Assembly (NCBI RefSeq): GCF_029626235.1
Contig: NZ_JARUBO010000005.1
Span: forward strand, 3,132,501-3,196,500
Source: Micromonospora sp. WMMD1120
GTDB lineage: Bacteria; Actinomycetota; Actinomycetes; Mycobacteriales; Micromonosporaceae
Direction: 5' to 3'
Length of the DNA stretch: 64,000 nucleotides
This document shows positions 15,689-31,190 of this stretch, one piece after another (the first letter of the stretch is position 1; each line of letters opens with the position of its first letter). The translations under genes and the position numbers were made by a program. Under the pieces are notes generated by a model. It had not been told where the DNA came from, searched no databases, and saw only the letters and a list, made by a program, of their open reading frames with translations.

Positions 15689-17284
15689 TCAGAGGAGGCT
15701 GGGCACGTCGGTGTTGATGGGCACCGGCAGCACCGTGGGCCGCTCGGCGCGCAGCGCGGTGGCGAGCGCCGCGCCGAGCTGCTCGGGTGTCTCCGCCACC
15801 TCGGTGGCGCAACCGTAACCGGCGGCGATGGCTGTGACGTCCAGCCCCGGTAGGTCCAGGCCGGGCACTCCGGGAGTGTGCTTCAGCTCGGCGAACGCCT
15901 TGAGGATCGCGTACTGCTGGTTGACCGGGACCACGACCACCACCGGCAGGGCCAGGCGGGCGGCGGTCCACAGCGCCTGCACCGAGTAGTGGAACGACCC
16001 GTCGCCGATCACCGCCACCACCGGTCGACAGCGTCCGGTGTCCCGCTCGGCGAGCGCCACCCCGACCGCGGCCGGCAGGCCGTAACCGAGGCCGCCGCTG
16101 GCCATCGTGAAGTACGACGCCGGTCGGGTGATCCGAAGCTGACGGCGCAGCGCGGACAGATTGGACGGTGACTCCTGTACCAGCACCCCGTCCGCCGGCC
16201 AGTGCGCGGCCAGCGCGGCGAAGAGGGCGTCGGCGCTCAGCGGGGTGGTCATCTCCGGCGGTGGCGGCGCGGCCCGTCGTGCGGGTGCCGGTCGGTCGGT
16301 CGGCGGCACCCGCTGGACGAACGCGGCCAGGGCCAACCCGGGGTCGCTGAGCAGACTGTCGCCGACCGGAGCCCGCGCGGCCTCGTCGGGGTCGTCGGTG
16401 ACGTGCAGCAGTCGGGCGCCGTCGGGCAGGTGCCCACCGGGCAGGTACGGGTAGTAGCGGAACACCGGAGCACCCACCACCAGCACCGTGTCGTGCCCGC
16501 GCAGCGCCTCGGCGAGGGGGCCGATCGCGTACGGCAGCACCCCGCGGAAGTGCGGGTGGTCCTCGGGGAACACGGCCCGCTCGGTGGCGGGGGCCGACCA
16601 GACCGGCGCGGCCAGCCGCTCGGCCAGGGCGACGGCGGTCGACCAACTGCCGGAGCGGTCCACGCCCGGCCCGTAGACGAGCACCGGACTGGCGCTGCCG
16701 GCGAGCACCCGGGCGAACTCGTCCAACCGCTCCGGGTCCGGCGCGAAGCGGGTCGCCACCGTACGCGGGGCGGGCGGCGGGTCGGCGGGCTGCGCCCAGT
16801 CGTCCAGCGGCAGCGAGAGGAAGACCGGTCCCGCCGGTGGTTGCACAGCTGTCGCGTACGCCCGCAGCAGCGCTGCCGGGATGTCCTGCGCCCGAGCCGG
16901 CTCGTAGGCCCACTTCACATACGGCTGCGGGAGTTCGGTGGGCCGGCGGCTGGCCAACCGGGGTTCGAGCAGCAGCATCTCCCGGGTCTGCTGCCCGGCG
17001 GTGACGATCAACGGGGTCTTGTTGTGCCAGGCGGTCACCAGGTTGCCCATGCCGTTGCCGGTGCCCGGGGCGGTGTGCAGGTTGACGTGGGCGGGTTTCC
17101 CGGTGGCCTGGGCGTAGCCGTCGGCCAGCGCGACGGCCGTCGCCTCATGCAGCGCGTGGACGTAGTGGAAGTCGGTGGGGAAGTCCTGGAGGAACGGCTC
17201 CTCGGTGGAGCCGGGGTTGCCGAAGACGGTGGTCATCCCGAGGGTGCGGAGCACGTCGTATGTCGTGTCCCGGACCGTTGCCAT
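15689..17284 (-). CDS. mdlC: Benzoylformate decarboxylase-like ThDP enzyme
   Basis: Thiamine-diphosphate enzyme of the benzoylformate decarboxylase type (benzoylformate to benzaldehyde plus CO2). The 531-residue protein opens with GNPGSTEEPFL, including the conserved Ser and Glu seen in BFDC. It has HEATAVALADGYAQATG with the active-site His, and the ThDP/Mg motif VIGDGSFHYSVQALW running to VVPVNQQYAILKAF. Close relatives act on other 2-oxo acids, so the exact substrate is inferred. ATG 17284 lies 9 nt after GGAGG; GTG 17290 is too close to the site. A 2-hydroxy-acid oxidase that could make its substrate is encoded 5.6 kb away. Confidence 0.8.
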   Translation of the reverse strand: MATVRDTTYDVLRTLGMTTVFGNPGSTEEPFLQDFPTDFHYVHALHEATAVALADGYAQATGKPAHVNLHTAPGTGNGMGNLVTAWHNKTPLIVTAGQQTREMLLLEPRLASRRPTELPQPYVKWAYEPARAQDIPAALLRAYATAVQPPAGPVFLSLPLDDWAQPADPPPAPRTVATRFAPDPERLDEFARVLAGSASPVLVYGPGVDRSGSWSTAVALAERLAAPVWSAPATERAVFPEDHPHFRGVLPYAIGPLAEALRGHDTVLVVGAPVFRYYPYLPGGHLPDGARLLHVTDDPDEAARAPVGDSLLSDPGLALAAFVQRVPPTDRPAPARRAAPPPPEMTTPLSADALFAALAAHWPADGVLVQESPSNLSALRRQLRITRPASYFTMASGGLGYGLPAAVGVALAERDTGRCRPVVAVIGDGSFHYSVQALWTAARLALPVVVVVPVNQQYAILKAFAELKHTPGVPGLDLPGLDVTAIAAGYGCATEVAETPEQLGAALATALRAERPTVLPVPINTDVPSLL

Positions 17285-17490
17285 CGCCACCCGCCTCCGT
17301 GTCGCGGGCAGGGACGACCCGGTCGTCCTCCCGATCAGCCGAATCTATCGGGATGTGACGGGCCTTTCGGGCTTTTCTCGGCCGTGGCTGGTCCGGATCA
17401 GTCCAGCAGTGGGAAGTCGACCGCCGGGGTTGGCCGGCAACTGTCCGATCACCCGCCGCTGAGACCTTAGCCAGCGCCCGGGACGCAGGC

Positions 17491-18274: not shown

Positions 18275-18347
18275 GGGGCCGTGGCGCAGCTGGTAGCGCA
18301 CCACACTGGCAGTGTGGGGGTCAGGGGTTCGAGTCCCCTCGGCTCCA
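18275..18347 (+). tRNA. tRNA-Ala (anticodon GGC)
   Basis: A 73-nt cloverleaf. The acceptor GGGGCCG pairs with CGGCTCC with one G-U, the anticodon stem CCACA/TGTGG holds loop CTGGCAG with anticodon GGC at 18308-18310, and the T loop is TTCGAGT. The discriminator is A and the CCA is not encoded (CCC follows). It reads GCC and GCU alanine codons. Its last 27 bases are overlapped on the other strand by the sensor kinase ORF. Confidence 0.97.
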
Positions 18348-19634
18348 CCCAGGCGAAACGCCCTGGTGCGGGTTATTGGCCCGCACCAGGGCGTTGTTCG
18401 TTTCCCGGTCAGGACCCCGCGCCCCTGCCCCGACCGTCCGTGGCGGCAGCGTCGGCAGGCGGACGGTGAAGGTCGCCCCCTCGCCGGGCCTGCTCTCGGC
18501 GGTGATCGTTCCGCCGTGACTCGTCACCACCTCGCGCAGGAGAGCAAGGCCCAGACCGAACCGCCGGTCCTGGGCCCCGGCCCCGCGATGGAAGCGGTCG
18601 AAGAGGCGTTCCGCGTCGGCGCTGTCGAAGCCGGCGCCGCTGTCGGTGACCACCAGGTCCGCGTCGCGGCGGGAGGTGCGCAGCGTCACGTCGATACGGC
18701 CCCCGGTCGGGGTGTGGGTGAGGGCGTTGGCGAGCAACTCGCCGACCACGCGGCGCAGGGCGGAGGCGACGCCGCAGACGAGCACCGGAGTGTCCGGGGC
18801 GGTCAGGCGTACCTGGACGCCCTGCTCCGCGGCGCGCTCGGCCTCGCAGTCGACGGCCTCGGCGGAGAGGCGGGTCAGGTCGACGGGCGCGGAGGGGTGC
18901 CGGTCGGCAGGGGTGGCGGCGAGCCGGGCGGAGAGCAGGAGTTCGTCGACGATCTCGCCGAGGCGGCGGGTGGTCTCGATCAGGCGGTCGTAGTCGGCAC
19001 GGTCGGCGCCGGCGCGGCGGGCCAGAAGTTGGGCGCGGGTGTGGACGTGGGCGATGGGGGTGCGCAACTCGTGGCTGGCGTCGGCGACGAAGCGACGTTG
19101 CCGGCTGAGCGCCTCGGCGAGCGGCGCGACGGCGCGGCGGCCGACGACGAAGCCGGTGAGCACCGCCGCGGCGAGGCCGACGATCGCGGCGAGGAGGAAC
19201 GCCGCGAGCAGGTGACGCCGGTCGGAGAGCTGGAACCGGGCGTCGAACACCGCCTGCACCACCCCCGCGCCGCGCGGCTGGGTGCGTACGTAGTACGTGG
19301 TGCCGTTGCGGGTGATCCGGTCACTGCGGACCTGGCGGTCGAGGGCCACCGTGTCGATGGCGGACCGCAGTGGGAACCCTTCGGGTGGGGGGTTCCGGCC
19401 CGAGTCGAAGCGGCCACCCTCGTACAGGATGATCCAGTTGCAGCCCGGCGGACCGTCGATGGTGCCGTGCACCGCGCCGTAGGTCAGCTCGCGTTCGATC
19501 TGTTCGTGCTGGTTGTGCAGCAGCGCCGCGTACGAGATGGCGGCGCCCAGGGCCAGCAGCGTCGTGATGGTGAGGCCGACGAACACGCTGACCCGTACCC
19601 GGGCCCGGCGCAGCATGGTGTCCTCGAAGCTCAC
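18321..19634 (-). CDS. Two-component sensor histidine kinase
   Basis: A membrane sensor kinase with TM segments at about residues 15-38 and 143-165 around an extracellular sensor domain. The HAMP-like linker is short. The DHp helix carries the phospho-accepting His ([20 protein letters not shown]). The ATPase domain follows with N box [14 protein letters not shown]1 VTDSGAGFD, the F-box-like DRFHRG and G2 RFGLGLALL. The GTG start overlaps the response regulator stop (GTGA). The kinase domain ends near [10 protein letters not shown]. The last 35 or so residues are translated from the tRNA terminator hairpin and 27 bases of antisense tRNA, so the original stop may have been lost. Confidence 0.9.
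18357..18395. terminator. Hairpin terminator after tRNA-Ala, inside the kinase ORF
   Basis: A perfect 16-bp stem (18357-18372 with 18380-18395) and 7-nt loop, 9 nt after the tRNA. It lies within the 3' end of the opposing kinase frame, 34 bases before that frame's stop codon. Confidence 0.8.
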
Positions 19635-20287
19635 AGCGTCCCCAACCGGTAGCCGAGTCCGTGCACGGTCCGGATCACCGACCGGCCGAGCTTGCGCCGC
19701 AGGTAGTAGACGTACGTGTCGACCAGGGACGCCGCTGCCGCCTCGTCGAAGACCCGGCTGCGCAGCTCGGACCGGGAGTGCACGGTGTGCGGCCGGGCCG
19801 CGAGGACGCGCAGCAGCTCGAACTCGCGGGCGGACAGCGCGATCCGGGTGCCGTCGGGCAGGACGGCGTCGCGCACGGAGAGGTCGAGCTGGCCCGCCCC
19901 GAGCCGCAGCACCTCGGTCGAGTCGGAGGTCCGGCGGCAGAGGGCCCGGATGCGGGCGCTCAACTCGTCCAGGTCGAAGGGTTTCGTCAGGTAGTCGTCG
20001 GCGCCCGCGTCGAGACCGGCGATCCGGTCGTGGACGGTGCCGAGCGCGGTCAGCAGCAGCGCCCGGGCGACCACCGCGCGGGAACGCAACCGCACGACGA
20101 GGTCCAGCCCGTCGAGGGCGGGGAGCAGGCGGTCGATCACCATCACGTCGTACGGCCGGGTGAGCCCGAGGTGCAGGCCGCGTTGCCCGTCGGGGGCCTG
20201 GTCGACGACGTATCCCTCGTCGGTCAGCGTCTCGGCCACCATGCCGCGGAGCTCCGAGTCGTCATCAACGAGCAGGAGGCGGGTCAT
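19631..20287 (-). CDS. OmpR/PhoB-family response regulator
   Basis: A 218-residue regulator with an N-terminal receiver ([12 protein letters not shown] acidic pocket, phospho-acceptor Asp in [20 protein letters not shown], and the Lys in [13 protein letters not shown]). The C-terminal winged HTH reads [16 protein letters not shown], then [13 protein letters not shown] and [12 protein letters not shown]. It forms a translationally coupled pair with the downstream kinase. ATG 20287 has no ribosome binding site. It lies 63 bases after the antiporter gene on the same strand, so it could be carried on the metabolic cluster transcript or use its own promoter, near which an inverted repeat is visible. 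Confidence 0.93.
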
Positions 20288-20350: not shown

Positions 20351-21610
20351 TTACGGGGTTCCGGCCGGCACCAGTGCCCCGCTGGACGCGGAAACCCGGG
20401 CCTCGCGCCGTTCGATCCAGCTGAGCAGCGGCGTCGTCATGAGCGTCGTGACGAGCGCGACCAGCACGAGCACCGTGAAGAGCGACGAGTTCACCACGCC
20501 CGCCTCCAGCCCCACGTTCAACGCGATGAGCTGCATCAGGCCCCGGGCGTTCATCAGGGAGCCAACGCGCAGCGCGACGCTGTTCGGCTCGCCCATCAAC
20601 CGCGCCGCGCCCCAACAGGCGCCGAACTTCCCGGCGATCGCCACCGCCACGCAGGCGACGGCGAAGAGCAGCACCGCCGGATTGCCGAGCAACCCGAACT
20701 CGGTGCGCAGCCCGGAGAAGGTGAAGAACAGCGGCAGGAACACCGTCGCGGCGATCGGCGTCAGCGTGTCGACCACCTTGTCGGTCCTGGCGGAGTGCGG
20801 CATCACCACGCCGACAGCGAAAGCGCCGAAGACCGCGTAGAGCCCGATCTCGTCGGTGTAGAAGGCGACCAGGAAGAGTAGCGCCACGGTGCCCAGCAGG
20901 CGCGCCCGGTCGCCCGGAAGCCCCATCACGAAGCCGGTCACCCGCCGTCCGCCCAGCCACAGCGCCACCGCGAACAGCACCGCGCCGCCCGCGGTGACCA
21001 GGGCCGGACCGGCGGCGCCGGAGGCGAACGCCAGCACCACGGCCAGCAGGATCCACGCGACCGCGTCGTCGATCGCGCCCGAGGCCAGGGCGAGCAGCCC
21101 GAAGCGGGTGCCGGCGAGGCCGCGTTCGGTGATGATCCGGGCAAGCATGGGGAAGGCCGTGATCGCGAGCGCCACACCGACGAACGCCGCCGACACGCCG
21201 AGCGACACGCCGTCCGCGCGGATCGGGACGAACCCCGCCATGCTCACGACCAGCAGCACTCCCAGCACCAACGGAACCGTGACACCCGCCACCGACACCG
21301 CTCCCGCCGTGCCCGCGATTCTGGTCACCCGGTGCGAGGTGAAGGCGTACCCGGCCTGGAACATGAACAGCACCAGGCCGACCTGACCGACCACGTACAG
21401 GATCGGCAGCAACGGCGCGGGGAAGAGCGCGGCCTGCGCGCCCGGCCACAGCAGGCCGAGCAGCGACGGGCCGAGCAGCACCCCGGCGAGCATCTCGCTC
21501 ACCACCGGAGGTTGACCCACCCCGCCGAGGAGCCAGGAGACCAGCTTGCAGAAGAGCAGAATGACAGCGACCGCGATGAAGAACCGCGGGGCGAGTTCGG
21601 TGGGGGTCAC
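20351..21610 (-). CDS. CPA2-type cation:proton antiporter
   Basis: A 419-residue membrane protein of the Na+/H+ exchanger (CPA2, KefB/NapA-like) fold with about 12-13 hydrophobic segments. Motifs include PPVVSEMLAGVLLGPSLLG near the N-terminus, VGVALAITAFPMLARI, the ion-binding Asp pair in LASGAIDDAVAWILL, and MPHSARTDKVV. It should exchange a monovalent cation, or possibly an organic ion, for protons across the cell membrane. The GTG start overlaps the P450 stop (GTGA), so it is the last member of the leftward metabolic operon and could export the product or balance its charge. Confidence 0.88.
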   Translation of the reverse strand: MTPTELAPRFFIAVAVILLFCKLVSWLLGGVGQPPVVSEMLAGVLLGPSLLGLLWPGAQAALFPAPLLPILYVVGQVGLVLFMFQAGYAFTSHRVTRIAGTAGAVSVAGVTVPLVLGVLLVVSMAGFVPIRADGVSLGVSAAFVGVALAITAFPMLARIITERGLAGTRFGLLALASGAIDDAVAWILLAVVLAFASGAAGPALVTAGGAVLFAVALWLGGRRVTGFVMGLPGDRARLLGTVALLFLVAFYTDEIGLYAVFGAFAVGVVMPHSARTDKVVDTLTPIAATVFLPLFFTFSGLRTEFGLLGNPAVLLFAVACVAVAIAGKFGACWGAARLMGEPNSVALRVGSLMNARGLMQLIALNVGLEAGVVNSSLFTVLVLVALVTTLMTTPLLSWIERREARVSASSGALVPAGTP

Positions 21611-22860
21611 GTGTCTGCCTCCTCGAAGAACCGGGTGCACAACTTCAGTCGTCGGGCGTCGACGACCATCCAGGTGCCGTAGACGAGCTGCTTGACCGAC
21701 CGACCCACGTCGAAGAGCCGGTCGCGCTGCCGCATCACCGCCAGCCGGCGGCGACCGGGACCGCTGCGGCCCCGGGGCGTGAGGTACGCGGGACCGCGAC
21801 TCGGCAGGGAGCGGGTGTGCGCCACCGACGAGCTGACCGAGAACCGTTGCAGCACCTCCCGGGTCGCCGCGCGCAGTTGCACCGGGGCCGAGCCGCGTGC
21901 CGGACAGGCCCGGTTGGCGGTGACGCCGTACGGGATGAAGTGGGCGTCCTGCCGGCGCAGCGTCAACCAGCGGTCCGGGTCGAACTCGGCGTCCGCCGCC
22001 GGCCCGGTGCGCTGGTAGGCCGGGTAGTTGAAGAGCAGCACCGATCCGCTCGGGAGCACGTGCTCGCCGACGGTGATGGGCGCGGAGGTGATCCGGTGCG
22101 CGATACCGAACAACGGGTACACCCGCAGCGTCTCGTCGATGAGCCGGTCGAGAGAGCCGTCCGAGGTGTCCTCGACGGACTGGGCGCACAGCAGGATGTG
22201 TGCCATGGCCTCCGACATCTGCACCACCGCCGTGTTGAAGAACGCCCCCTGGAGGTACCAGGCGGTCTCCAGGGCGGTGAACGGCGGCGGCAGCACGACC
22301 GGGCAGGTCCCCGCCTCGATCCGGTGCAGCAGGTAACGCGTCAGCCGATCCCGCCGGGACATGTGCCGCAGGCTCATCCCCTTCAGCGCGGTGACCACGT
22401 CGTCGGCGTTCGCCACGATGAGGTCCCGGACGTCGCGCGGGCACCGTGCGCCGAACACCAGCTCGTACGAGACCTCGGCCCAGACCGGCATCATCAGGTC
22501 CCGCAGCCGCACGTGGGTGGTCCGGCCGGCCGGGAGCGTGTCCAGGGCCCGCCGGGTCGCGGCCGTCGCCAGCTCGTCGGAGCGCGCGTGGGGGACGGCG
22601 AGCACCTGCCGTGTCGTACGCGCGACCACCCGGTACCGCTCGCCGGGCTCCAGGTGCTCCTGGTGCATCTGCGGACCGGGGGCGAGCCAGTACCAGAACA
22701 GGTCCGACAGGCCGGCGCCGCGGCTGCGCCCGTCGGCGGCCGGATCGCCGTAGACCCGCTCGAAGTCCTCCGGCCCCACCAGCGGTCCGGGCACGGGGAT
22801 TCCTTCGGTCCCGTTCACCCGCTCGAAGATCCACTCCCGGAGGGCGATCACCGCCCTCAC
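21607..22860 (-). CDS. Divergent cytochrome P450
   Basis: A 417-residue haem-thiolate enzyme. The K-helix ExxR is intact (LIDETLRVYPLFGIAHR) and the haem-ligand Cys is at residue 319 in PYGVTANRACPARG. That loop has one residue more than the usual FGxGxRxCxG. The I-helix oxygen-activation motif, normally (A/G)Gx(D/E)T, reads QGAFFNT with Asn in place of the acid. About 98 residues follow the Cys, more than usual. No ferredoxin gene is adjacent. The GTG start overlaps the stop of the hydroxy-acid oxidase and the stop overlaps the antiporter start. Substrate unknown; the odd I-helix suggests unusual chemistry or reduced oxygen activation. Confidence 0.85.
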   Translation of the reverse strand: MRAVIALREWIFERVNGTEGIPVPGPLVGPEDFERVYGDPAADGRSRGAGLSDLFWYWLAPGPQMHQEHLEPGERYRVVARTTRQVLAVPHARSDELATAATRRALDTLPAGRTTHVRLRDLMMPVWAEVSYELVFGARCPRDVRDLIVANADDVVTALKGMSLRHMSRRDRLTRYLLHRIEAGTCPVVLPPPFTALETAWYLQGAFFNTAVVQMSEAMAHILLCAQSVEDTSDGSLDRLIDETLRVYPLFGIAHRITSAPITVGEHVLPSGSVLLFNYPAYQRTGPAADAEFDPDRWLTLRRQDAHFIPYGVTANRACPARGSAPVQLRAATREVLQRFSVSSSVAHTRSLPSRGPAYLTPRGRSGPGRRRLAVMRQRDRLFDVGRSVKQLVYGTWMVVDARRLKLCTRFFEEADT

Positions 22861-23846
22861 CGGGTCACCACCTGGTCGGGCGTCAGATCGGCCGGCCGCC
22901 GTGCCCCGGCCAGGGCGAGGACCTGATCCAGCTCGGTGGTCAGTCGCTCGAGCGTCTCCCGTACGCCGGCCGCCCCACCGGTCGCGAGCCCGCGCAGCAC
23001 CGGACGCCCGATGAGCACCGCTGTCGCCCCGAGCGCCAGCGCGACAGCCACGTCGGCGCCGTGGCGCACACCCCCGTCGAGCAGCACCGGAATCCGCCCC
23101 TGCACGGCTTCCGCCACCGGTGGGAGCGCGTCGAGCGTGGGGACCGCCCCGTCGAGCTGCCGTCCGCCGTGGTTGGACACCACCAGGCCGGCGGCGCCGT
23201 TGTCGACGGCGAGCCGGGCGTCGGCCGGATGCAGGACGCCCTTGAGGAGGATCGGCAGCCCGGTGACGCCACGCAGCCAGGCGATCCGGTCCCAACCCAC
23301 CGTCGCGTCCATCTCGATCGGGCGCACCCGGCCGGTGGCGTCCCGCATGTTCTCGCAGGCGTAGCCGGCGGGCAGGTCCGTGAAGCCGTTGCGCAGGTCA
23401 CGCTCGCGCCGCCCGAACACCGGGGAGTCCACTGTCACCACGAGCGCCCGGCAACCCGCCGACTCGGCGCGCTTGACCACGTACTCGGTGAAGGCGAGGT
23501 CGCGTTGCGGGTACAACTGGAACCACAGCGTCGCGCCCGCCGCCGCGATCTCCTCGACCGGCTGGGTGGCGGCCATGCTGACCACCATCGTCGTGCCGGC
23601 CGCCGCGGCGCCCCGCGCGGTGGCCGCCTCGCCGTCGGGGTGCGCGAGCCGGTGAAAGGCCGTCGGGGCGACCAGGACCGGCGTGGCCAGCGGGGTGCCG
23701 GCCACCGAGCACCGCAGGTCCCGCTCGCCGGTGGCCCGCAGCACCCGGGGCACGATCCACCGCCGCTCGAAGGCCCGTTCGTTGCCGGCCACCGTGCGCT
23801 CCCGCCCGGCGCCGCCCTCGAAGAAGTCCTGGTGCACCGGGTCCAT
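22857..23846 (-). CDS. FMN-dependent 2-hydroxy-acid oxidase (mandelate/hydroxymandelate oxidase-like)
   Basis: A 329-residue TIM-barrel flavoprotein of the glycolate/lactate/mandelate oxidase family, which oxidises an L-2-hydroxy acid to the 2-oxo acid. Visible elements are APTAFHRLAHPDGE, the flavin-site WFQLYPQRD with the active-site Tyr, VTVDSPVFGRRERDLRNGF, the FMN-phosphate Lys in ILLKGVLHP, the catalytic His and Arg in VSNHGGRQLDG, and DGGVRHGADVAVALALGA. The size and the short loop 4 favour the soluble oxidase type such as 4-hydroxymandelate oxidase. ATG 23846 follows the flavoprotein stop by one base. In context it likely acts on an aryl hydroxy acid. Confidence 0.87.
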   Translation of the reverse strand: MDPVHQDFFEGGAGRERTVAGNERAFERRWIVPRVLRATGERDLRCSVAGTPLATPVLVAPTAFHRLAHPDGEAATARGAAAAGTTMVVSMAATQPVEEIAAAGATLWFQLYPQRDLAFTEYVVKRAESAGCRALVVTVDSPVFGRRERDLRNGFTDLPAGYACENMRDATGRVRPIEMDATVGWDRIAWLRGVTGLPILLKGVLHPADARLAVDNGAAGLVVSNHGGRQLDGAVPTLDALPPVAEAVQGRIPVLLDGGVRHGADVAVALALGATAVLIGRPVLRGLATGGAAGVRETLERLTTELDQVLALAGARRPADLTPDQVVTR

Positions 23847-23847
23847 G

Positions 23848-25422
23848 TCAGCCCTCGACGCCGGCCAGGCAGCGCTCCAGGAACTCCCGCAGCGGCCGGA
23901 CGTGGACCTCGGGCCGGTCCCACCGGTTCTCCAGGTTCTCGGCGAGGTGGTGGGTGTCGACCAGCCGACCCCCGCTGTGGTAGCGGACGACCGGATGCAG
24001 GTACGCCGCGTCGTGCGCCTGCCCCACGACGTCCTGCGCCACCCGGGTCACCGTGATGTCGAACGGGTCGACCTGGTCGTGGGCGGGGCCGTACTCGAGG
24101 GTGACCACGAACGCCCGGTCGTGGTCGTGCCCGGCGGTACGCAGGCCGGTCGACGCGAAGTAGTCGACCGGCACCTCCTCGTGGTAGCGGGCCTCCGGTC
24201 CGGCGACGGTGAGCACGTCGGCGAGGAACCCGAACTGCTGCCACAGGGCCGAGGTGCGGTTGACCCGCTCGATGACGGCGGCGGTCATGGCGGCCGGGTC
24301 GGCGGCGAGGCTGGTGAACGGCCAGTCGGTGGCGTCGTACCGGCGGGCCAGAATCCGGTGCAGGGCGCGTACGGCGTAGCGGAAGCCGTGCACGAAACCG
24401 CTCGTGGACTTCTTGAAGTCGCGTTGCTGCGAGATCGTCCCGGCGAAGAACAACCCGCTGACGTTCACCGACTCCCATTCCTCGGTCTGCGCCGGGAACC
24501 GGTCGTTGATGGCGAGTCGGGGCCGGGCCGAGGCGTCGAAGATCGATGCGTCGAAACGGAATCCGGTGCACGCCAGCACCCTGTCGTAATGCAGCTCCTT
24601 CACCACCTCGTCGGCACGGGAGAAGCTGAACGTGACCCGGTAACCCGTGTCGTCGCGCTCGATGCTCTTGATCGTGCCGTCGAGGATCGCGTTCGCGGAC
24701 TTGAGTTGATAGGTGTCCAGGAAGTTGTTGTTGACCGCGCGCAGGTGCCCCACGTAGTGGGTGCGCCACGCCATCCGCACCGAGCTGGGCCCGGCGACGT
24801 GGATCAGCGTCGTGGTCTCCATGAGGTTGTCGGCGGTCTCGAAGGCGGAGTTGCCCTTGCCGATGATGAGGACCTTCTGGTCGAGGTAGTCACGTGGGTC
24901 GACGCTCATCACGTCGTACCCCTCGGCCAGTTCGAACCCGGGGATGTCCGGCTCGTAGGTCTTCGAGACGCCGGTGGCCACGATCACCGCGCGGGCCTCC
25001 CAGCGGCGGTCGCCGGCCTCGACGGTGAACACGTCGTGGTGCTTGGACACGCGGGTCACCCGGGTGCCGTAACTCACCTTGACGCCGGTCTTCGCCGCGA
25101 AGTCCGCCAGGTACCGCACCATCACGTCGGCGTCCGGGAAGTAGCGCTCGGTGTACTGCGTGAACAGCAGCGCCGGATCGTCGGTGAGCAGCGAGTTCCA
25201 GTCCAGCCGCAGATTCAGTTCCGGGTCGTCCGTCCCGGTGTGCGGTTTGTTGATGGAGATGAGGGTCCGGTGCCGTGGATAGGTGGCGAAGAAGGCCCCC
25301 GGTCCGTCGGCGCCCTCCAGCACCAGATAGTCGCGCTCGCCGTCGGCCTCGAGCAGGGCGGCGAGTTGGAGACCGGCCGGACCGGCCCCGATGATCAGGT
25401 AATCAAGCGTCACGGCGCTCAC
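23848..25422 (-). CDS. FOXRED2-like FAD-dependent oxidoreductase 1
   Basis: A 524-residue flavoprotein with two Rossmann folds: FAD-binding LIIGAGPAGLQLAALLEADG near the N-terminus, and the NAD(P)H-binding VLIIGKGNSAFETADNLME near residue 175. A conserved FFAGTISQQRDFKKSTSGFV completes the FAD site. It resembles single-component flavin monooxygenases and eukaryotic FOXRED2 in layout, plus a C-terminal domain of about 120 residues with AYLHPVVRYHSGGRLV. The reaction is unknown; N- or C-oxygenation or a dehydrogenation are both possible. It starts at GTG 25422 (or 25413), overlapping the lyase gene by up to 20 bases. A close paralog lies on the other arm. Confidence 0.85.
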   Translation of the reverse strand: MSAVTLDYLIIGAGPAGLQLAALLEADGERDYLVLEGADGPGAFFATYPRHRTLISINKPHTGTDDPELNLRLDWNSLLTDDPALLFTQYTERYFPDADVMVRYLADFAAKTGVKVSYGTRVTRVSKHHDVFTVEAGDRRWEARAVIVATGVSKTYEPDIPGFELAEGYDVMSVDPRDYLDQKVLIIGKGNSAFETADNLMETTTLIHVAGPSSVRMAWRTHYVGHLRAVNNNFLDTYQLKSANAILDGTIKSIERDDTGYRVTFSFSRADEVVKELHYDRVLACTGFRFDASIFDASARPRLAINDRFPAQTEEWESVNVSGLFFAGTISQQRDFKKSTSGFVHGFRYAVRALHRILARRYDATDWPFTSLAADPAAMTAAVIERVNRTSALWQQFGFLADVLTVAGPEARYHEEVPVDYFASTGLRTAGHDHDRAFVVTLEYGPAHDQVDPFDITVTRVAQDVVGQAHDAAYLHPVVRYHSGGRLVDTHHLAENLENRWDRPEVHVRPLREFLERCLAGVEG

Positions 25423-26920
25423 CGTACGAGTGGGAAATCAGAGATTTTTCAAGCTGTTCCAGAAGCGCGGCCGCCGTTCGTACGTCACCGTCGAGCGGCC
25501 GGTCCGGGTCGATCGGGGCAATTGCCTCCTCCAGCGCCCGCAGCGCGCGGTCGCAGCCCTTCGCCGTGGGACGGCGCGCTCCGACGTGGACCGCCTGGCG
25601 TAGCCCCAGCGCGAGCGAGCCGGTGATCAGGCGCAGCAGTTGCGCCTGGTCCAGGGCGCGCAGCGCGGCCTGCGTGCCGAGTGGGATGACGTCCTGGTTG
25701 TGCAGGTTGGTGGGCAGGCTCTGCGCGCTCGCCGGCACGGTGTCGCGCCTGATCTCGGTGATGAGCGCCGTCGACGCGAGTTGGACGCCCTGTAGCCCGT
25801 GCTGCTGACCCGGCCCGGCCGCGAGCATCGGCGGCAGCCCTCCGTTGCGTCCGGGGTCCACCAGCAGGTCGAGCTGGCGCTCGGCGAGGTTGCCGATCTG
25901 GGCGATCACCATGGAGAGGACGTCGGCGGCGAAGGCGGCGGGCTGGCCGAAGAAGTTGCCGCCGTGCACGACCTTGTCGTCGTCCGGAAAGAACAGTGGG
26001 TTGTCGCTCACCGCGCCGAGGTCGGCCGCCACGATGCCGTCGACGTAGCGCAGGGCGTCCTCGGCCGCGCCGAGCAGCTGCGGCGAGCACCTGATGCTGT
26101 ACGGCTCCTGTAGCGGTCTGCTGCCGGACGCCCGCAGGCCGGCGCAGGTCGCCCGCATCGCGGCGCCGACCTCGATCGCGCCCCGGTGACCGTAGGCGGC
26201 CAGCAGGGCCGGGTCGAGGAACTGCGGATCGCTGCCGAGCAGGTCGGCGAGGAGGCAGCTCAGTGTCCGCAGCACGCGGTGCGAGGCGCGGACCCGGTCC
26301 AGGGCGAGGGCCAGCGCCGCGGTGGTGAGCGACGTGCCGTTGACCAGCGCGAGCGCGTCCCGGCCGTCGAGCGGCAGCGGTTCCAGGCCCGCCTTCGCCA
26401 GGGCCTCCCCGGCGGGCATCCGGACGCCGTCCAGGTACGCGTGGCCCCGGCCGCGCAACGCCTGCGCGGCGGCGCCGAGCGGGATCAGGTCGCCGCTGGC
26501 CCCCACCGAGCCGAGCCGGGGCATCGCCGGTGTGAACGTCGTGCCGAGCATCGCCGCCAGCGCGTCGATCACGTGGGGCGAGACCCCGGACGCGCCCCGG
26601 GCCAGGGACCAGGCGCGGACCAGCAGGGTCGCGCGTACGACGTCCGGGGCGAGGTCCGGGCCCTGGCCGGCGCCGAGGTGGGCGAGGGTGTTGTCGGCCT
26701 GGTCGCGCTGGTCGGCCCGGCCCGCGTACCCGACGAGCGCCCCGAAACCGGTGGTGGCGCCGTAGATCGCCCGGTCGTCGCCGAGCGCCTTGCCGAGAAA
26801 CGTCCGGCCGGTCGCCACCCGGTCGCGTACCTCGTCGCCGATCACCACGGTGATCGGGCCCGCCGCGGCGCGCAGGTCGGCGGTGCGCAGCGGTTCCGCC
26901 AGATCCACATCAATCGTCAT
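25403..26920 (-). CDS. MIO-type aromatic amino acid ammonia-lyase (tyrosine ammonia-lyase-like)
   Basis: Removes ammonia from an aromatic amino acid to give an arylacrylate (or urocanate). The 505-residue protein has the Ala141-Ser142-Gly143 triad, in GSVGASGDLIPLG, that cyclises to the MIO electrophile. The catalytic Tyr53 is in YGATTGFG, and NGTSLTTAALAL and QEPYSIRCSPQ are conserved. At the selectivity site it reads LAHLGAGQGP: His81-Leu82 matches the His-Leu pair of known tyrosine ammonia-lyases, not the Phe-Leu of phenylalanine enzymes or the Ser-His of histidine enzymes. A tyrosine aminomutase is an alternative. First gene of the leftward arm, with a leaderless-type ATG at 26920. Confidence 0.88.
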   Translation of the reverse strand: MTIDVDLAEPLRTADLRAAAGPITVVIGDEVRDRVATGRTFLGKALGDDRAIYGATTGFGALVGYAGRADQRDQADNTLAHLGAGQGPDLAPDVVRATLLVRAWSLARGASGVSPHVIDALAAMLGTTFTPAMPRLGSVGASGDLIPLGAAAQALRGRGHAYLDGVRMPAGEALAKAGLEPLPLDGRDALALVNGTSLTTAALALALDRVRASHRVLRTLSCLLADLLGSDPQFLDPALLAAYGHRGAIEVGAAMRATCAGLRASGSRPLQEPYSIRCSPQLLGAAEDALRYVDGIVAADLGAVSDNPLFFPDDDKVVHGGNFFGQPAAFAADVLSMVIAQIGNLAERQLDLLVDPGRNGGLPPMLAAGPGQQHGLQGVQLASTALITEIRRDTVPASAQSLPTNLHNQDVIPLGTQAALRALDQAQLLRLITGSLALGLRQAVHVGARRPTAKGCDRALRALEEAIAPIDPDRPLDGDVRTAAALLEQLEKSLISHSYGERRDA

Positions 26921-26928
26921 GGATGCGG

Positions 26929-26976
26929 ATGCTAGAGACGGTTTCTCAGAGCGCTCTGAAATCGCGTCAGTACATT
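26929..26976. promoter_or_regulatory. Divergent leaderless promoters with shared palindromic operator
   Basis: Rightward, TACATT (26971-26976) ends 7 nt before ATG 26984. Leftward, TAGCAT (26934-26929 on the complement) ends 8 nt before ATG 26920. Between them TCAGAGCGCTCTGA (26946-26959) is a perfect 14-bp palindrome covering the expected -35 positions of both promoters. It should let one repressor control both arms at once. The regulator is not identified. Confidence 0.7.
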
Positions 26977-26983
26977 GCGCGGC

Positions 26984-28522
26984 ATGACGCACGATTGCCT
27001 GATCATCGGAGCCGGACCGGCGGGTCTACAGCTCGCGGCTCTGCTCGAGCGCGACGGTCACGACTATGTGGTGCTGGAGGGCGGACCCCGGCCGGGCACG
27101 TTCTTCGAGACCTATCCGCGGCACCGTCAATTGATCTCGATCAACAAGGTGTGGACCGGTTCCGAGGACCCGGAGTTCAACCTGCGGTCGGACTGGAACT
27201 CACTGCTGTCCGACGATCCGGCGCTGCTGTTCAAGAACTACAGCACGCGTTACTTCCCCGCCGCCGACGACCTGCTGCGTTATCTCGCCGACTTCGCGCG
27301 GAATCTCCGGGTCCACTACGACACCCGGGTGACGGCGGTGTCGAAGACCGCCGACGTGTTCACCGTCGAGGCCGGCGACCGGAGGTGGGAGGCCCGCACT
27401 GTCGTCGTCGCCACCGGTGTCTCCGCGCTGTACGTGCCGCCGATCGAGGGCGCGGACCTGGTCGAGCGCTACGACACCGTCTCCGTCGACCCCGCCGACT
27501 TCGTCAACCAGCGCGTGTTGGTCATCGGTAAGGGAAACTCGGCGTTCGAGACCGCCGACGCGCTGATCGAGACGGCGGCGACGATTCATGTCGCCGGGCC
27601 GCACTCCATCCGGTTGGCCTGGCAGACCCATTACGTCGGGCACCTGCGCGCGGTGAACAACAACTTCCTGGACACCTATCAGCTCAAATCGCAGAACGCC
27701 GTCCTGGACGGCACCGTGGAGCAGATCAGTCAGCGCGAGGGCGGCGGTTTCCGGGTGCTCTTCCGGTACGCCCGGACGGTCGAGAATCTGCGCGAGCTGG
27801 AGTACGACCGGATCATCCTCTGCACCGGTTTCCGCTTCGACGCATCCATTTTCGCCGAGTCCGCCCGACCGGAGCTGGTGATAAACGACCGGTTCCCGGC
27901 GCAGACCCCGGCCTTCGAGTCGGTGAACGTCAGCGGCCTCTACTTCGCCGGCACCCTCACTCAGCAACGTGACTTCAAGAAGTCCACCAACGGCTTCATC
28001 CACGGCTTCCGCTACGCCACCCGGGCGCTGCACCACATCCTCCGCGAACGGCACCACGGGAAGCCCTGGCCGGACCGGCGGATCGCGCTGACGCCGGAGG
28101 CGATCGCCGACTCGATCATCGCCCGGATCAACGTGACCTCGGCGCTGTGGCAGCAGTTCGCGGTGCTCGGTGACGTCGTCACGGTGGAGGGCGAGACCGC
28201 CCGGTACCGCGAGGAGATGCCGGTCGCCTACCTGCGCGACGCGGAGCCGGACGTGTTCGCGTTCGTGGTCACCCTCGAGTACGGCCCCGACCACGATCAC
28301 GTCGACCCGTTCGACATCACGGTGCCGCGCCCGGCCGAGAACGACGCGACAGCCGCCCACGACGCCAGCTATCTCCACCCCGTCGTACGGGTGCGGCGCG
28401 GCGGGCGGGTCGTCGCCGAGCACCACCTGGCGGAGAACCTGGAGAACACCTGGGACCTGCCGACGGTGCACCGGCAGCCGCTCGAGGTCTTCGTCAAGGG
28501 CGTCCTCGCCGATGCCCGCTGA
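26984..28522 (+). CDS. FOXRED2-like FAD-dependent oxidoreductase 2
   Basis: A 512-residue paralog of the leftward flavoprotein, collinear throughout and alike at well over half the positions by eye. FAD site LIIGAGPAGLQLAALLERDG, NAD(P)H site VLVIGKGNSAFETADALIE, and FAGTLTQQRDFKKSTNGFIH are intact, and the shared C-terminal domain includes ASYLHPVVRVRRGGRVV. The pair probably arose by duplication and may act in sequence or as a heterodimer. ATG 26984 is directly downstream of a -10 box, so no leader is expected. Its last 11 bases overlap the adenylating enzyme gene. Confidence 0.85.
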   Translation: MTHDCLIIGAGPAGLQLAALLERDGHDYVVLEGGPRPGTFFETYPRHRQLISINKVWTGSEDPEFNLRSDWNSLLSDDPALLFKNYSTRYFPAADDLLRYLADFARNLRVHYDTRVTAVSKTADVFTVEAGDRRWEARTVVVATGVSALYVPPIEGADLVERYDTVSVDPADFVNQRVLVIGKGNSAFETADALIETAATIHVAGPHSIRLAWQTHYVGHLRAVNNNFLDTYQLKSQNAVLDGTVEQISQREGGGFRVLFRYARTVENLRELEYDRIILCTGFRFDASIFAESARPELVINDRFPAQTPAFESVNVSGLYFAGTLTQQRDFKKSTNGFIHGFRYATRALHHILRERHHGKPWPDRRIALTPEAIADSIIARINVTSALWQQFAVLGDVVTVEGETARYREEMPVAYLRDAEPDVFAFVVTLEYGPDHDHVDPFDITVPRPAENDATAAHDASYLHPVVRVRRGGRVVAEHHLAENLENTWDLPTVHRQPLEVFVKGVLADAR

Positions 28523-29927
28523 CATCTGGCCGCAGCCCGTCCTCGACCTCCTCGCGGCCGGCGGGGAGCGGCCGGTCTTCGAGGACGGGCCGGACGTGAC
28601 CACGGCCGCGCAGATGTCGGCCCTGATCCGGCGTGTCGCTGCCGGGCTGCGCTCCGCGGGCGTGCGCCCGGGAACCGGCGTCATCCTCGACCTGCCGGTC
28701 ACCGCCGCCGCCTTCGCCGCGACGATCGCGGCCTTCGCCGTCGGGGCGCGGGTGTCCGGGTGGCGTGCCGACCTGAGCGCCGAGCAGATCGCCGGCGCCG
28801 CGGTGGTCGACGCGGGTCGGCTGGCCTCACTCGCCGCGTACCCCGACGACGGGCTGCCGCTGGTAGCGGCGGGTCGGGCGGAGGAACCCGCCCGGATCAT
28901 CTGGACCAGTGGCAGCACGGGAACGCCGAAGGGAGTGGTGCAGAGCTACGCGGCCATGTCGGCGGCCTGGGCCCCGTACCCCGACCGGTGGCCGCCGGCT
29001 GTCGCCGAACTGGCCACCCGGTTACGGCGCTACCTGGTCTTCGGCTCCCTGGCCAGTCAGGTCATGCTGGAGTACGGCATCATCACGCTGGCGGCCGGCG
29101 GCACCCTCGTGGTGGCGCACCGACCGGTGTTTCCGGCGGCACTGGTCGACTGCCGGGCCACGGCCAGCGTGATCACCGTCGGCAAGCTGTACCAACTGGT
29201 GCGGGACCAGCGCTCCCGACCGGCCGACCTGCGTCACCTCCGGGCGCTGCTGGTTTCCGGGTCGCCGCTCGCGCCGGGCCGGCTGGCGGAGGCCCTCGAC
29301 GTGCTCGGGCCGGTGCTCTTTCACGGGTACGGGCAGACCGAGACCTCGATGATCGCCATGCTGACACCCGCCGAGATGGTGACCGAGCCGGACACCCTCG
29401 CCACCGTCGGTCGCCCGGCCGTGGACGTCTCCGTCCGCGACGGGGAGATCTACGTCCGCACACCAGCGCAGGCGTCCTCGTACTGGCGGGACCCCACGGA
29501 GTCGGCCGAGGTGTTCGTGGACGGCTGGGTGCGCACCCGGGACCTGGGACATGTCGACGCCGACGGTTACCTGCGGCTGCTCGGACGGGCGCGGGACGTG
29601 ATCATCGTCAACGCGCAACTGGTGTACGCCGGGCCGGTCGAGCGCGCGCTCGCCGCCGACGCCGCGGTCGCCGAGGCGTACGTGGTCGGGGCGCCGGACG
29701 AGGTGACCGGCGAGGCGGTGCACGCCTACGTGGTGCCCGTGCACGGCAGGACGCCCGACCCCGACGTGCTGCGCAAGCTGGTGGCCGCGCAGGTGAACGA
29801 CCACGCGGTGCCGCGAACCGTCACGGTCATCGACCGGGTACCCCTCGCGCCCAGCGGCAAGCCGGACAAGAGGCAGCTCGTACCGCCCGACGACACGCGC
29901 GGCGCGGCGGACACGACAACGCCCTGA
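28512..29927 (+). CDS. AMP-forming acyl/aryl-acid adenylating enzyme
   Basis: ANL-superfamily enzyme that activates a carboxylic acid as acyl-AMP, then normally transfers it to CoA or a carrier. In 471 residues it has the P-loop IIWTSGSTGTPKG, the A5 motif FHGYGQTE, the A7 Asp in RTRDLGHVDADGYLRLLGR, the hinge DVIIVNAQ and the catalytic Lys in PSGKPDKRQ. The N-terminal domain is shorter than in most CoA ligases. There is no carrier-protein gene nearby, so CoA or direct amide formation are the options. A cinnamate- or coumarate-type acid from the lyase is the natural candidate substrate, by inference. Confidence 0.85.
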   Translation: MPADIWPQPVLDLLAAGGERPVFEDGPDVTTAAQMSALIRRVAAGLRSAGVRPGTGVILDLPVTAAAFAATIAAFAVGARVSGWRADLSAEQIAGAAVVDAGRLASLAAYPDDGLPLVAAGRAEEPARIIWTSGSTGTPKGVVQSYAAMSAAWAPYPDRWPPAVAELATRLRRYLVFGSLASQVMLEYGIITLAAGGTLVVAHRPVFPAALVDCRATASVITVGKLYQLVRDQRSRPADLRHLRALLVSGSPLAPGRLAEALDVLGPVLFHGYGQTETSMIAMLTPAEMVTEPDTLATVGRPAVDVSVRDGEIYVRTPAQASSYWRDPTESAEVFVDGWVRTRDLGHVDADGYLRLLGRARDVIIVNAQLVYAGPVERALAADAAVAEAYVVGAPDEVTGEAVHAYVVPVHGRTPDPDVLRKLVAAQVNDHAVPRTVTVIDRVPLAPSGKPDKRQLVPPDDTRGAADTTTP

Positions 29928-30269: not shown

Positions 30270-31190
30270 ATGCCCGTACGTCGGATCCTTGCCCTGGCGC
30301 TGGTCGTCACCGCGACAATGCCCCTGGCGGCCACACCCGCCGCCGCGCACGGCGCGCCGACGGCCCCGGTCAGCCGGGCGGCGGCCTGTGGACCCGAGGG
30401 CCGGTACGCGGCCACCGCCGCCTGCCGGGCTGCGGTCGAGGCCGGCGCGGCGGTCCGCGAATGGGACAACGTCCGCGTGGCGGCGATCAACGGACGGGAC
30501 CGGGAACGGATCCCGGACGGTGAGCTGTGCAGTGGTGGGCTGTCCGCGTACCGGGGACTGGACCTGCCCCGGACCGACTGGCCGAGCACCGAGCTGACCA
30601 GCGGCGCGTCGTTCACCTTCCGGTACCGGACCACCATCGAACACAGGGGCACCTTCCGGCTCTACGTCACCAAGCCCACCTACGACCCCACGAAGCGGTT
30701 GACCTGGGCGGACCTGGAGTCGCGCCCGTTCCTGACCAGAACCGACCCGCCGGTACGCGCCGGGGCGTACCAGTTGGCGGGGCGGCTGCCGGCGGGGCGC
30801 AGCGGTCGGCAGCTGATCTACACGATCTGGCAGAACTCGAACACCCCGGACACCTACTACTCCTGTTCGGACGTGGTGTTCCGGGGTGCGAAGGCCACCG
30901 CCGCCCCGCCGAGGACCGCTCCGACGAAAAGCAGTGCGTCTGCTCCGCGTACCCCGGCGAGTAGCCCGGCCGGCACGCAGCCGGCGGTCGCGGCGGCGGC
31001 CGACCCGGGCGTGCCGGTGGCCTCGGTGACCGGCCTCGGCGGCCGGTGGCCGGTGCTGGCCGGCGCCGCCGTCGCGCTGGTCCTGGCGTTGCTGTTCGGC
31101 GCGGGCCGGCGACGCCGCAGCGCCGCCGCGACGGTGGGCCGGCAGTGCGAGGTCCGCAACCACCGGGCCGGGCGGCGCCGGATCTGGTGA
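30270..31190 (+). CDS. Membrane-anchored AA10 lytic polysaccharide monooxygenase
   Basis: A copper enzyme that oxidatively cleaves chitin or cellulose chains. The signal peptide (residues 1-26) ends in AAA, leaving His27 (HGAPTAPVSR) as the mature N-terminus, one half of the copper His brace. The second His is His125 in TTIEHRGTF, and the late motif IWQNSNTPDTYYSCSDVVF is typical of AA10. After a Ser/Thr/Pro/Ala-rich linker the protein ends with a TM helix (WPVLAGAAVALVLALLFGAG) and an Arg-rich cytoplasmic tail. Most AA10 proteins are freely secreted, so the anchor is unusual. There is no sortase LPxTG motif. ATG follows GGCGGAGG. Confidence 0.9.
   Translation: MPVRRILALALVVTATMPLAATPAAAHGAPTAPVSRAAACGPEGRYAATAACRAAVEAGAAVREWDNVRVAAINGRDRERIPDGELCSGGLSAYRGLDLPRTDWPSTELTSGASFTFRYRTTIEHRGTFRLYVTKPTYDPTKRLTWADLESRPFLTRTDPPVRAGAYQLAGRLPAGRSGRQLIYTIWQNSNTPDTYYSCSDVVFRGAKATAAPPRTAPTKSSASAPRTPASSPAGTQPAVAAAADPGVPVASVTGLGGRWPVLAGAAVALVLALLFGAGRRRRSAAATVGRQCEVRNHRAGRRRIW

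Follow-up and report, generated by a model that had tools for sequence, protein, structure and literature searches.

A widespread actinobacterial gene set with its own two-component system and a possible oxidised aryl amide product

We analyzed a 64,000-nucleotide stretch of the Micromonospora sp. WMMD1120 genome (the window; contig NZ_JARUBO010000005.1, positions 3,132,501 to 3,196,500) and found in it a set of nine genes: a histidine kinase (HK), a response regulator (RR), an antiporter (ANT), a cytochrome P450 (P450), a flavin mononucleotide-dependent alpha-hydroxy acid oxidase or dehydrogenase (FMN), twin flavoproteins (FLA and FLB), an aromatic amino acid lyase (LYA) and an adenylating ligase (ANL). 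Across actinobacterial genomes these nine families co-occur, rearrange and split, yet keep a repeat of 7 + 4 bp before nearly all of the units read. We see an even chance that this widespread gene set makes a small specialised metabolite, an oxidised aryl amide, under the control of its own two-component system.

Results

Layout of the Locus

The first-pass annotation of the window had described seven genes in two tight arms diverging from one promoter, with packed junctions. Both descriptions were borne out over 20351–29927: the arms share a 63-bp region, neighbouring genes overlap by 4 bp (ANT/P450 and P450/FMN), 11 bp (FLA/ANL) or 20 bp (FLB/LYA; 11 bp with the second GTG as start), and FMN and FLB are separated by 1 bp. 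The families that it had named are present in all seven genes. The idea of one functional unit also stood, but not its extent, as the unit has nine genes and includes the two-component pair at 18321–20287 (Table 1). We corrected three starts: LYA begins at ATG 26920 (505 amino acids) instead of GTG 26992, FLA at ATG 26984 (512 amino acids, the length of all 18 best FLA matches) and ANL at ATG 28512 (471 amino acids). For ANT, TIGR00932 scored 110 bits, under its cut-off of 238, and the best NCBIfam models for RR (RppA, TctD and PmrA) were all below cut-off. The genome is 7.15 Mb in size, and the closest relatives of its flavoproteins are found in Micromonospora.

Table 1. Genes and promoter elements of the set in the window
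Feature	Position	Strand	Description
HK	18321..19634	-	membrane sensor histidine kinase; Pfam HisKA + HATPase_c
RR	19631..20287	-	OmpR/PhoB-type response regulator; Pfam Response_reg + Trans_reg_C
ANT	20351..21610	-	Na+/H+ exchanger-type antiporter (CPA2-like), possible exporter; PF00999, 152 bits
P450	21607..22860	-	divergent cytochrome P450; PF00067, 38 bits
FMN	22857..23846	-	alpha-hydroxy acid oxidase/dehydrogenase, FMN-dependent; PF01070, 395 bits
FLB	23848..25422	-	two-dinucleotide-binding flavoprotein B; PF13738, 171 bits
LYA	25403..26920	-	4-methylideneimidazole-5-one (MIO) aromatic amino acid lyase, tyrosine-type; PF00221, 429 bits
Divergent promoter region	26921..26983		63 bp, between LYA and FLA
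-10-like hexamer TAGCAT	26929..26934	-	8 nt upstream of LYA ATG
Putative operator TCTCAGA-n4-TCTGAAA	26944..26961		two TCTNAGA-type half-sites, 11-bp period
-10-like hexamer TACATT	26971..26976	+	7 nt upstream of FLA ATG
FLA	26984..28522	+	flavoprotein A; PF13738, 161 bits
ANL	28512..29927	+	adenylating ligase; nearest solved relative McbA

Co-inheritance across Genomes

From the best 80 of 215 relatives we collected 71 loci with twin flavoproteins, a sample that leans to close relatives, and we drew evenly a genus sample of 121 genomes and a family sample of 250 genomes. The fetched loci total 93, of which 77 hold P450; none was selected by its FMN gene. Absence was defined as no match at E-values of 1e-100 or 1e-150 for LYA, 1e-60 or 1e-100 for P450 and 1e-60 for FLA.

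Within the genus, LYA (E ≤ 1e-100) and P450 (E ≤ 1e-60) were found in the identical 24 of the 121 genomes. The co-occurrence of twin flavoproteins and lyase had been proposed earlier as a check: all 24 of these genomes have the FLB type and 22 the FLA type, and a further 23 genomes have only a homologue 42–46% identical to the flavoproteins. In the family sample, LYA was present in 55 genomes, P450 in 62 and both in 53. The two genomes with LYA only (L117 and L118, the latter a 4-kb contig) carry 60% identical lyases in different surroundings. Scattered, unlinked genes in close relatives had been named as an outcome that would speak against a cluster; this is not so in the genus, given the shared 24 of 121 genomes, yet ten genomes have a split set (described below), and in G151 and G155 of the family sample LYA and P450 lie at separate places.

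All nine families, HK and RR included, were found in 45 of the 93 loci (contig or locus ends truncate many of the rest), and the exact window order HK-RR-ANT-P450-FMN-FLB-LYA/FLA-ANL (the slash marking a divergent promoter) in 25. HK and RR share the P450 locus in 67 of 77 cases, again with some cut by contig ends, and ANT in 65 of 77. The set occurs in Micromonospora, Actinoplanes, Dactylosporangium, Lentzea, Saccharothrix, Nonomuraea, Microbispora, Streptomyces and other genera; the window gene order is kept in the first three, and the order is different in Lentzea, Saccharothrix, Actinophytocola and Actinokineospora. Clustering of gene calls from 72 sources (the 71 loci and the window) gave eight broad groups equal to the nine genes with the flavoproteins merged, among them ANL (64 sources), LYA (53), RR (44), HK (33) and P450 (30). 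The next cluster, in 17 of the 72 sources, overlaps P450 on the opposite strand. Open reading frames outside the nine families were chosen by a simple rule of GC content by codon position; 28 such neighbour groups were listed, and the ten annotated proved to be neighbours of particular lineages, for example an ABC transporter, a glycoside hydrolase, a kinase, a glycosyltransferase and an AraC regulator.

Split and Reduced Versions

Eleven loci held LYA/FLA-ANL alone, and we searched the genomes of ten of them (all but L061), belonging to Nonomuraea, Microbispora and Actinomadura. Each of the ten has one P450 elsewhere (E ≤ 1e-20), within FLB-FMN-P450-ANT-RR-HK, and on the complete chromosome of N. 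jabiensis the two half-sets lie at 2.5 and 11.8 Mb. The response regulator closest to that of the window adjoins P450 in all ten (58–62% identity; runner-up 46–48%). In these second units (L099–L108), another ligase gene precedes FLB in nine of ten cases, and none of these nine carries a motif of the SQVM type seen in the first ligase. In the Actinoplanes-type loci L013, L016, L020, L038, L071 and L120, unrelated genes are inserted between LYA and FLB.

Nine family genomes had P450 only, and eight were examined (all but G241). Four of these (L109–L112) keep ANL/FMN-P450-RR-HK and have lost LYA, FLA, FLB and ANT; L119, from the same genus, has the complete set. L113 is without LYA and FLA but otherwise full, L114 and L116 consist of FLB-FMN-P450, and in L115 P450 and FMN are divergent at a contig end. 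LYA, FLA, FLB and ANT are thus separable parts; the most reduced version that retains a switch of its own comprises ANL, FMN, P450, HK and RR. The lyase is not the defining gene of the set: the invariant pair is P450 and FMN, which adjoin each other in all 77 P450 loci, and reduced sets occur without LYA or the flavoproteins.

A Shared Promoter Repeat

The repeat in the divergent promoter region, written as TCTCAGA-n4-TCTGARA and allowing up to two mismatches, was found in all 69 regions between LYA and FLA, compared with a mean of 0.01 when each region was letter-shuffled 200 times. Of these regions, 28 are exact to TCTCAGA-n4-TCTGAGA and 65 have at most one mismatch. L055 and L062, in which the LYA–FLA pair is incomplete, were excluded from the 69; both have the motif before FLA. 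In the window genome, the zero-mismatch match is unique. The repeat also lies upstream of the separate FLA-ANL unit of Streptomyces in five of five cases.

In units read one way, the half-sites appear as direct repeats, TCTGA-n6-TCTGA with T or G as the first base. Such a direct repeat stands ahead of the FLB or FMN units in 10 of 10 split genomes, in five of six Actinoplanes loci with an insertion and in two of two and four of four units lacking LYA, a count that left out L113 and L115. In the five Actinoplanes-type loci it is a degenerate 11-bp repeat that lies 31 nt before the FLB start as aligned. All 69 loci have a TAnnnT hexamer 6–8 nt ahead of the FLA start; on the LYA side, 53 have one and 16 lack it. 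Because the -10-like hexamers lie so few nucleotides from the starts, both messages may be leaderless.

The PhoB box is described as two 11-bp direct repeats, each of seven conserved and four less conserved bp (PMC2648988). The arrangement found here resembles boxes of the PhoB/OmpR type in its two 7-bp half-sites with 4-bp spacers, its 11-bp period and the adjacent -10 box, but differs in the half-site (TCTGAGA) and in having an inverted version at the divergent promoter. Both hallmarks of an OmpR/PhoB unit, a regulator with receiver and winged-helix domains and 11-bp tandem half-sites, are present. The linked regulator likely binds the TCTGAGA-type repeat as its operator, judged from the sequence pattern, and because the repeat has the layout of a PhoB box, this regulator is also the likely activator. 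An operator upstream of the response regulator itself was considered and rejected, as none was found in the upstream stretches examined.

That the genes are housekeeping genes brought together by chance seems very improbable to us. Their ordinary names fit such an explanation, but the co-occurrence, the rearrangement, the retention of partners in split sets and the common repeat do not, and an adjacent near-core gene of the genus behaves quite differently. This neighbour, a benzoylformate decarboxylase gene at 15689–17290 (NF005485, 679 bits, above its cut-off of 493), was found in 109 of the 121 genus genomes (E ≤ 1e-100), 85 of which are without the set. We therefore rejected it as a mandelate-type pathway gene. 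It lies within ~10 kb of P450 in only four of the 24 set-bearing genomes (the window genome, G002, G093 and G119) and in none of the 71 loci, most of which end before its expected place.

The Invariant Oxidase Pair

The P450 is divergent but retains its core residues: heme Cys319 and the ExxR residues E243 and R246 were found in 58 of 58 aligned rows and were invariant in the 34 rows of a second alignment. In the I helix, which was located from spacing and alignment, the acid position is Asn209 in 55 of the 58 rows, and Thr210 follows it in all 58; the variants are AFFNT, TYFNT, TFFNT, AFGTT and TMFNT. Its partner, the FMN enzyme, has the catalytic His/Arg motif NHGGRQ in 58 of 58 rows.

The adjacency of the two genes in 77 of 77 loci and the Asn in 55 of 58 rows suit an arrangement in which the FMN enzyme feeds H2O2 to a P450 peroxygenase, or in which the pair recycles peroxide between hydroxylation and oxidation of the product. 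We found no recurrent ferredoxin-like frame within 5 kb of P450 in the 77 loci, among the 40 of 43 pattern matches listed; by eye, the listed matches were off-frame stretches rich in Arg, Ser and Cys, and a conserved linked ferredoxin gene was rejected. The altered I helix and the lack of a linked ferredoxin point weakly toward peroxide sharing. Many actinobacterial P450s, however, rely on ferredoxins encoded at other loci. Peroxygenases of the CYP152 family carry an Arg-Pro pair in the I helix, and with the helix placed as above, this pair is absent from the P450 rows. On balance we think peroxide sharing unlikely.

A P450 peroxygenase and an alpha-hydroxyacid oxidase have been engineered as an internal H2O2-recycling cascade (PMC5768024). 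The likeness is the succession of P450 and alpha-hydroxyacid oxidase; that cascade is laboratory-built from CYP152-type P450s and acts on fatty acids, whereas the pair described here is natural, linked and known from its genes. In a peroxide-based version of the reaction, the P450 would use H2O2 to hydroxylate the carbon adjoining a carbonyl, after which the FMN oxidase would make the ketone and return H2O2. The fuller proposal is more doubtful still: P450 and FMN would form a natural peroxide-recycling module requiring neither ferredoxin nor NADPH, and the lyase, twin flavoproteins and amide-forming ligase joined to it would yield amides of a new, tyrosine-derived class, all under a dedicated PhoB-like switch.

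The Lyase

LYA has the residues of a tyrosine-type MIO lyase. The MIO triad ASG (ASGDL) is present in 70 of 70 rows, the window included, and so is the His-Leu selectivity pair (AHL), in agreement with the signature noted earlier. NQ replaces the QE of histidine ammonia-lyase type (HNQD in 66 rows, RNQD in three and a gap in one of 70); these residues were also read in an alignment with the solved structure 2o6y. None of eight NCBIfam lyase and mutase models attained its cut-off: hutH models reached 358 bits and tyrosine ammonia-lyase models 236 bits. A histidine ammonia-lyase was nevertheless rejected on the residues (NQD and His-Leu), despite the higher hutH score. The best solved match is 2o6y at 232 bits, an entry labelled putative histidine ammonia-lyase, which we take to be the tyrosine ammonia-lyase of R. 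sphaeroides. From these residues we infer that LYA turns tyrosine into p-coumarate.

LYA could instead be a tyrosine 2,3-aminomutase, the amino group of beta-tyrosine then being oxidised by the flavoproteins and beta-tyrosine ligated to a partner. Neither the His-Leu pair nor the MIO triad distinguishes lyases from mutases, structures of tyrosine aminomutases follow closely behind 2o6y (211 versus 232 bits), and the predicted fold neighbours of FLA include amine N-hydroxylases. We nonetheless give this a low probability, as the mutase model TIGR03832 scored 269 bits against a cut-off of 501 and the best solved match is presumably an ammonia-lyase. The window genome has a second, separate aromatic amino acid lyase gene (G000:C5:3271480-3272859, locus L001), which scored 614 bits to PF00221.

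Two known systems share parts of this arrangement. In bagremycin and ferroverdin biosynthesis (BagA/FevW), an actinobacterial tyrosine-type lyase likewise feeds a small aryl product; the comparison covers the lyase only, and LYA scored 222 bits to the BagA/FevW model, whose cut-off is 1000. The start of the flexirubin pathway likewise combines a lyase (FlxA) with an adenylating ligase, a 4-coumarate-coenzyme A (CoA) ligase. LYA scored 236 bits to the FlxA model against a cut-off of 700, the nine families include no polyketide synthase or fatty acid synthase, and the window ligase differs from the flexirubin ligase in lacking the His of the A4 motif.

The Ligase

The earlier assignment of an acid-activating ligase was supported. 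The closest solved structures to ANL are those of McbA (6sq8 and 6h1b, 192 and 189 bits; the next at 143 bits), and McbA was the nearest solved relative for the two members tested, those of the window and L065. The A4-motif position holds Gln in 70 of 72 rows and Leu in one, and one row reads WAHTM; the catalytic Lys motif GKPDK is found in 71 of 72 rows. McbA has Asp201 at the position of the catalytic His of CoA ligases and joins aryl acids to amines within a single active site (PMC6282839). Given McbA as the nearest solved relative, an amide, one of the product types suggested at first, is plausible. The marinacarboline pathway of McbA resembles the present set in having a stand-alone adenylating ligase, the closest in sequence among solved ones, but here the partners of the ligase are oxidases and a lyase, and McbA residues E221 and E400 are H and N in the window. 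A plain 4-coumarate-CoA ligase is less likely in view of the A4 motif and of scores of only 65–74 bits to structures of that enzyme, versus 192 to McbA.

The Twin Flavoproteins

FLA and FLB are paralogues, 66–67% identical in alignments, and have two dinucleotide-binding motifs and the group B fold, as do class B flavin monooxygenases. The AlphaFold2 model of FLA (predicted local distance difference test score 80.2) has disulfide reductases (Bdr/YpdA) and flavin monooxygenases as its nearest folds, near-tied; the window FLA sequence has no CxxC. No FOXRED2 structure appears among the fold neighbours listed, which speaks neither for nor against the putative FOXRED2 likeness proposed in the first-pass annotation. 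We built a tree from 27 chosen loci of the 71, ten second units and five outgroups, in which FLB of Micromonosporaceae groups with all FLA (support 0.999), apart from FLB of other families. This grouping indicates that one twin was replaced or gene-converted by the other in Micromonosporaceae.

The flavoproteins of 42–46% identity (L079–L085) occur in a second neighbourhood with a nitroreductase, a YbdK-like carboxylate-amine ligase and sometimes an M20 peptidase. The nitroreductase and the YbdK-like ligase lie beside them in six of ten regions (Pfam assignments for two genes). We tried this neighbourhood as a clue to function and set it aside, as it names no reaction.

Discussion

A Proposed Pathway

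In our best reading, the product is an oxidised, probably amide-linked phenylpropanoid made by an uncharacterised pathway. The OmpR-type regulator would bind the two TCTGAGA half-sites beside the -10 box and switch on both arms, and LYA would convert tyrosine to p-coumarate. P450 and FMN would act as an obligate pair, in the simplest case by hydroxylating a carbon adjacent to a carboxylate or carbonyl and converting the alcohol into a ketone. Another NADPH-dependent oxidation, perhaps on nitrogen, may be the task of one or both flavoproteins. The ligase would adenylate the resulting aryl acid and join it to an amine, or less likely to CoA, and the antiporter may export the product or protect the cell. 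The several oxidative steps foreseen in the first-pass annotation fit the oxidase genes present (P450, the FMN enzyme and the flavoproteins).

Several observations weigh against this proposal. On the regulatory side, the two-mismatch pattern occurs elsewhere in four other genomes at 5–11 matches per strand, versus 2–4 for the control, and other targets are therefore possible; no repeat with up to two mismatches was found in the Actinoplanes FLB promoters or in L113; and the upstream stretches of RR itself are without the repeat. Among the enzymes, FLA is absent from two of the 24 set-bearing genus genomes, and because L109–L112 are without LYA, tyrosine-derived coumarate is not essential in every version. 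For the ligase, the entrance carboxylates D463, E221 and E400 of McbA correspond to D, H and N in the window (by alignment, with a 3-residue numbering offset), and the next scores after McbA belong to acyl- and feruloyl-CoA synthetases (143 and 117 bits).

The same parts could belong to a catabolic or detoxifying regulon, in which an aryl compound is the signal for the two-component system and is degraded or modified by the lyase, oxidases and ligase. The dedicated sensor kinase and the reduced sets lacking LYA are in keeping with this, and oxidases with a ligase are equally compatible with degradation. We consider it improbable, however: no ring-cleavage, hydratase, aldolase or thiolase gene was found among the nine families or the ten annotated neighbour groups, the nearest solved relative of the ligase is an amide synthetase with the A4-motif His being Gln in 70 of 72 rows, and the occurrence is patchy (24 of 121 genomes in the genus).

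Novelty and Implications

In the open-licence literature we found no paper assigning a product to this gene set, and the earlier statement that no characterised pathway has it stands within that literature. The best 120 flavoprotein and best 120 P450 relatives bear generic names only. The set is a new pathway family within specialised-metabolite gene sets, with an unusual invariant oxidase pair. Routine genome mining may overlook it, because the nine families include no polyketide synthase, nonribosomal peptide synthetase or carrier gene. The parts list, the core and the probable switch are now defined well enough for direct testing: the repeat indicates which regulator to activate, and the P450–FMN pair indicates the first reaction to assay. 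To our knowledge, a peroxide-sharing cascade of a P450 and an oxidase exists only as a designed system; the present pair would be its natural counterpart if peroxide is indeed shared.

Neighbouring Genes

The absence of polyketide synthase, nonribosomal peptide synthetase and carrier genes that had been reported for the cluster holds among the nine families and the ten annotated neighbour groups. The absence of a glycosyltransferase does not extend to Lentzea, where such a gene adjoins the set: in seven loci (e.g., L053:18014-19132), an EryCIII-like glycosyltransferase gene lies just past the antiporter on the other strand and could decorate the product. In the window, a lytic polysaccharide monooxygenase gene of the LPMO_10 family (30270–31190) lies directly downstream of the ligase arm.

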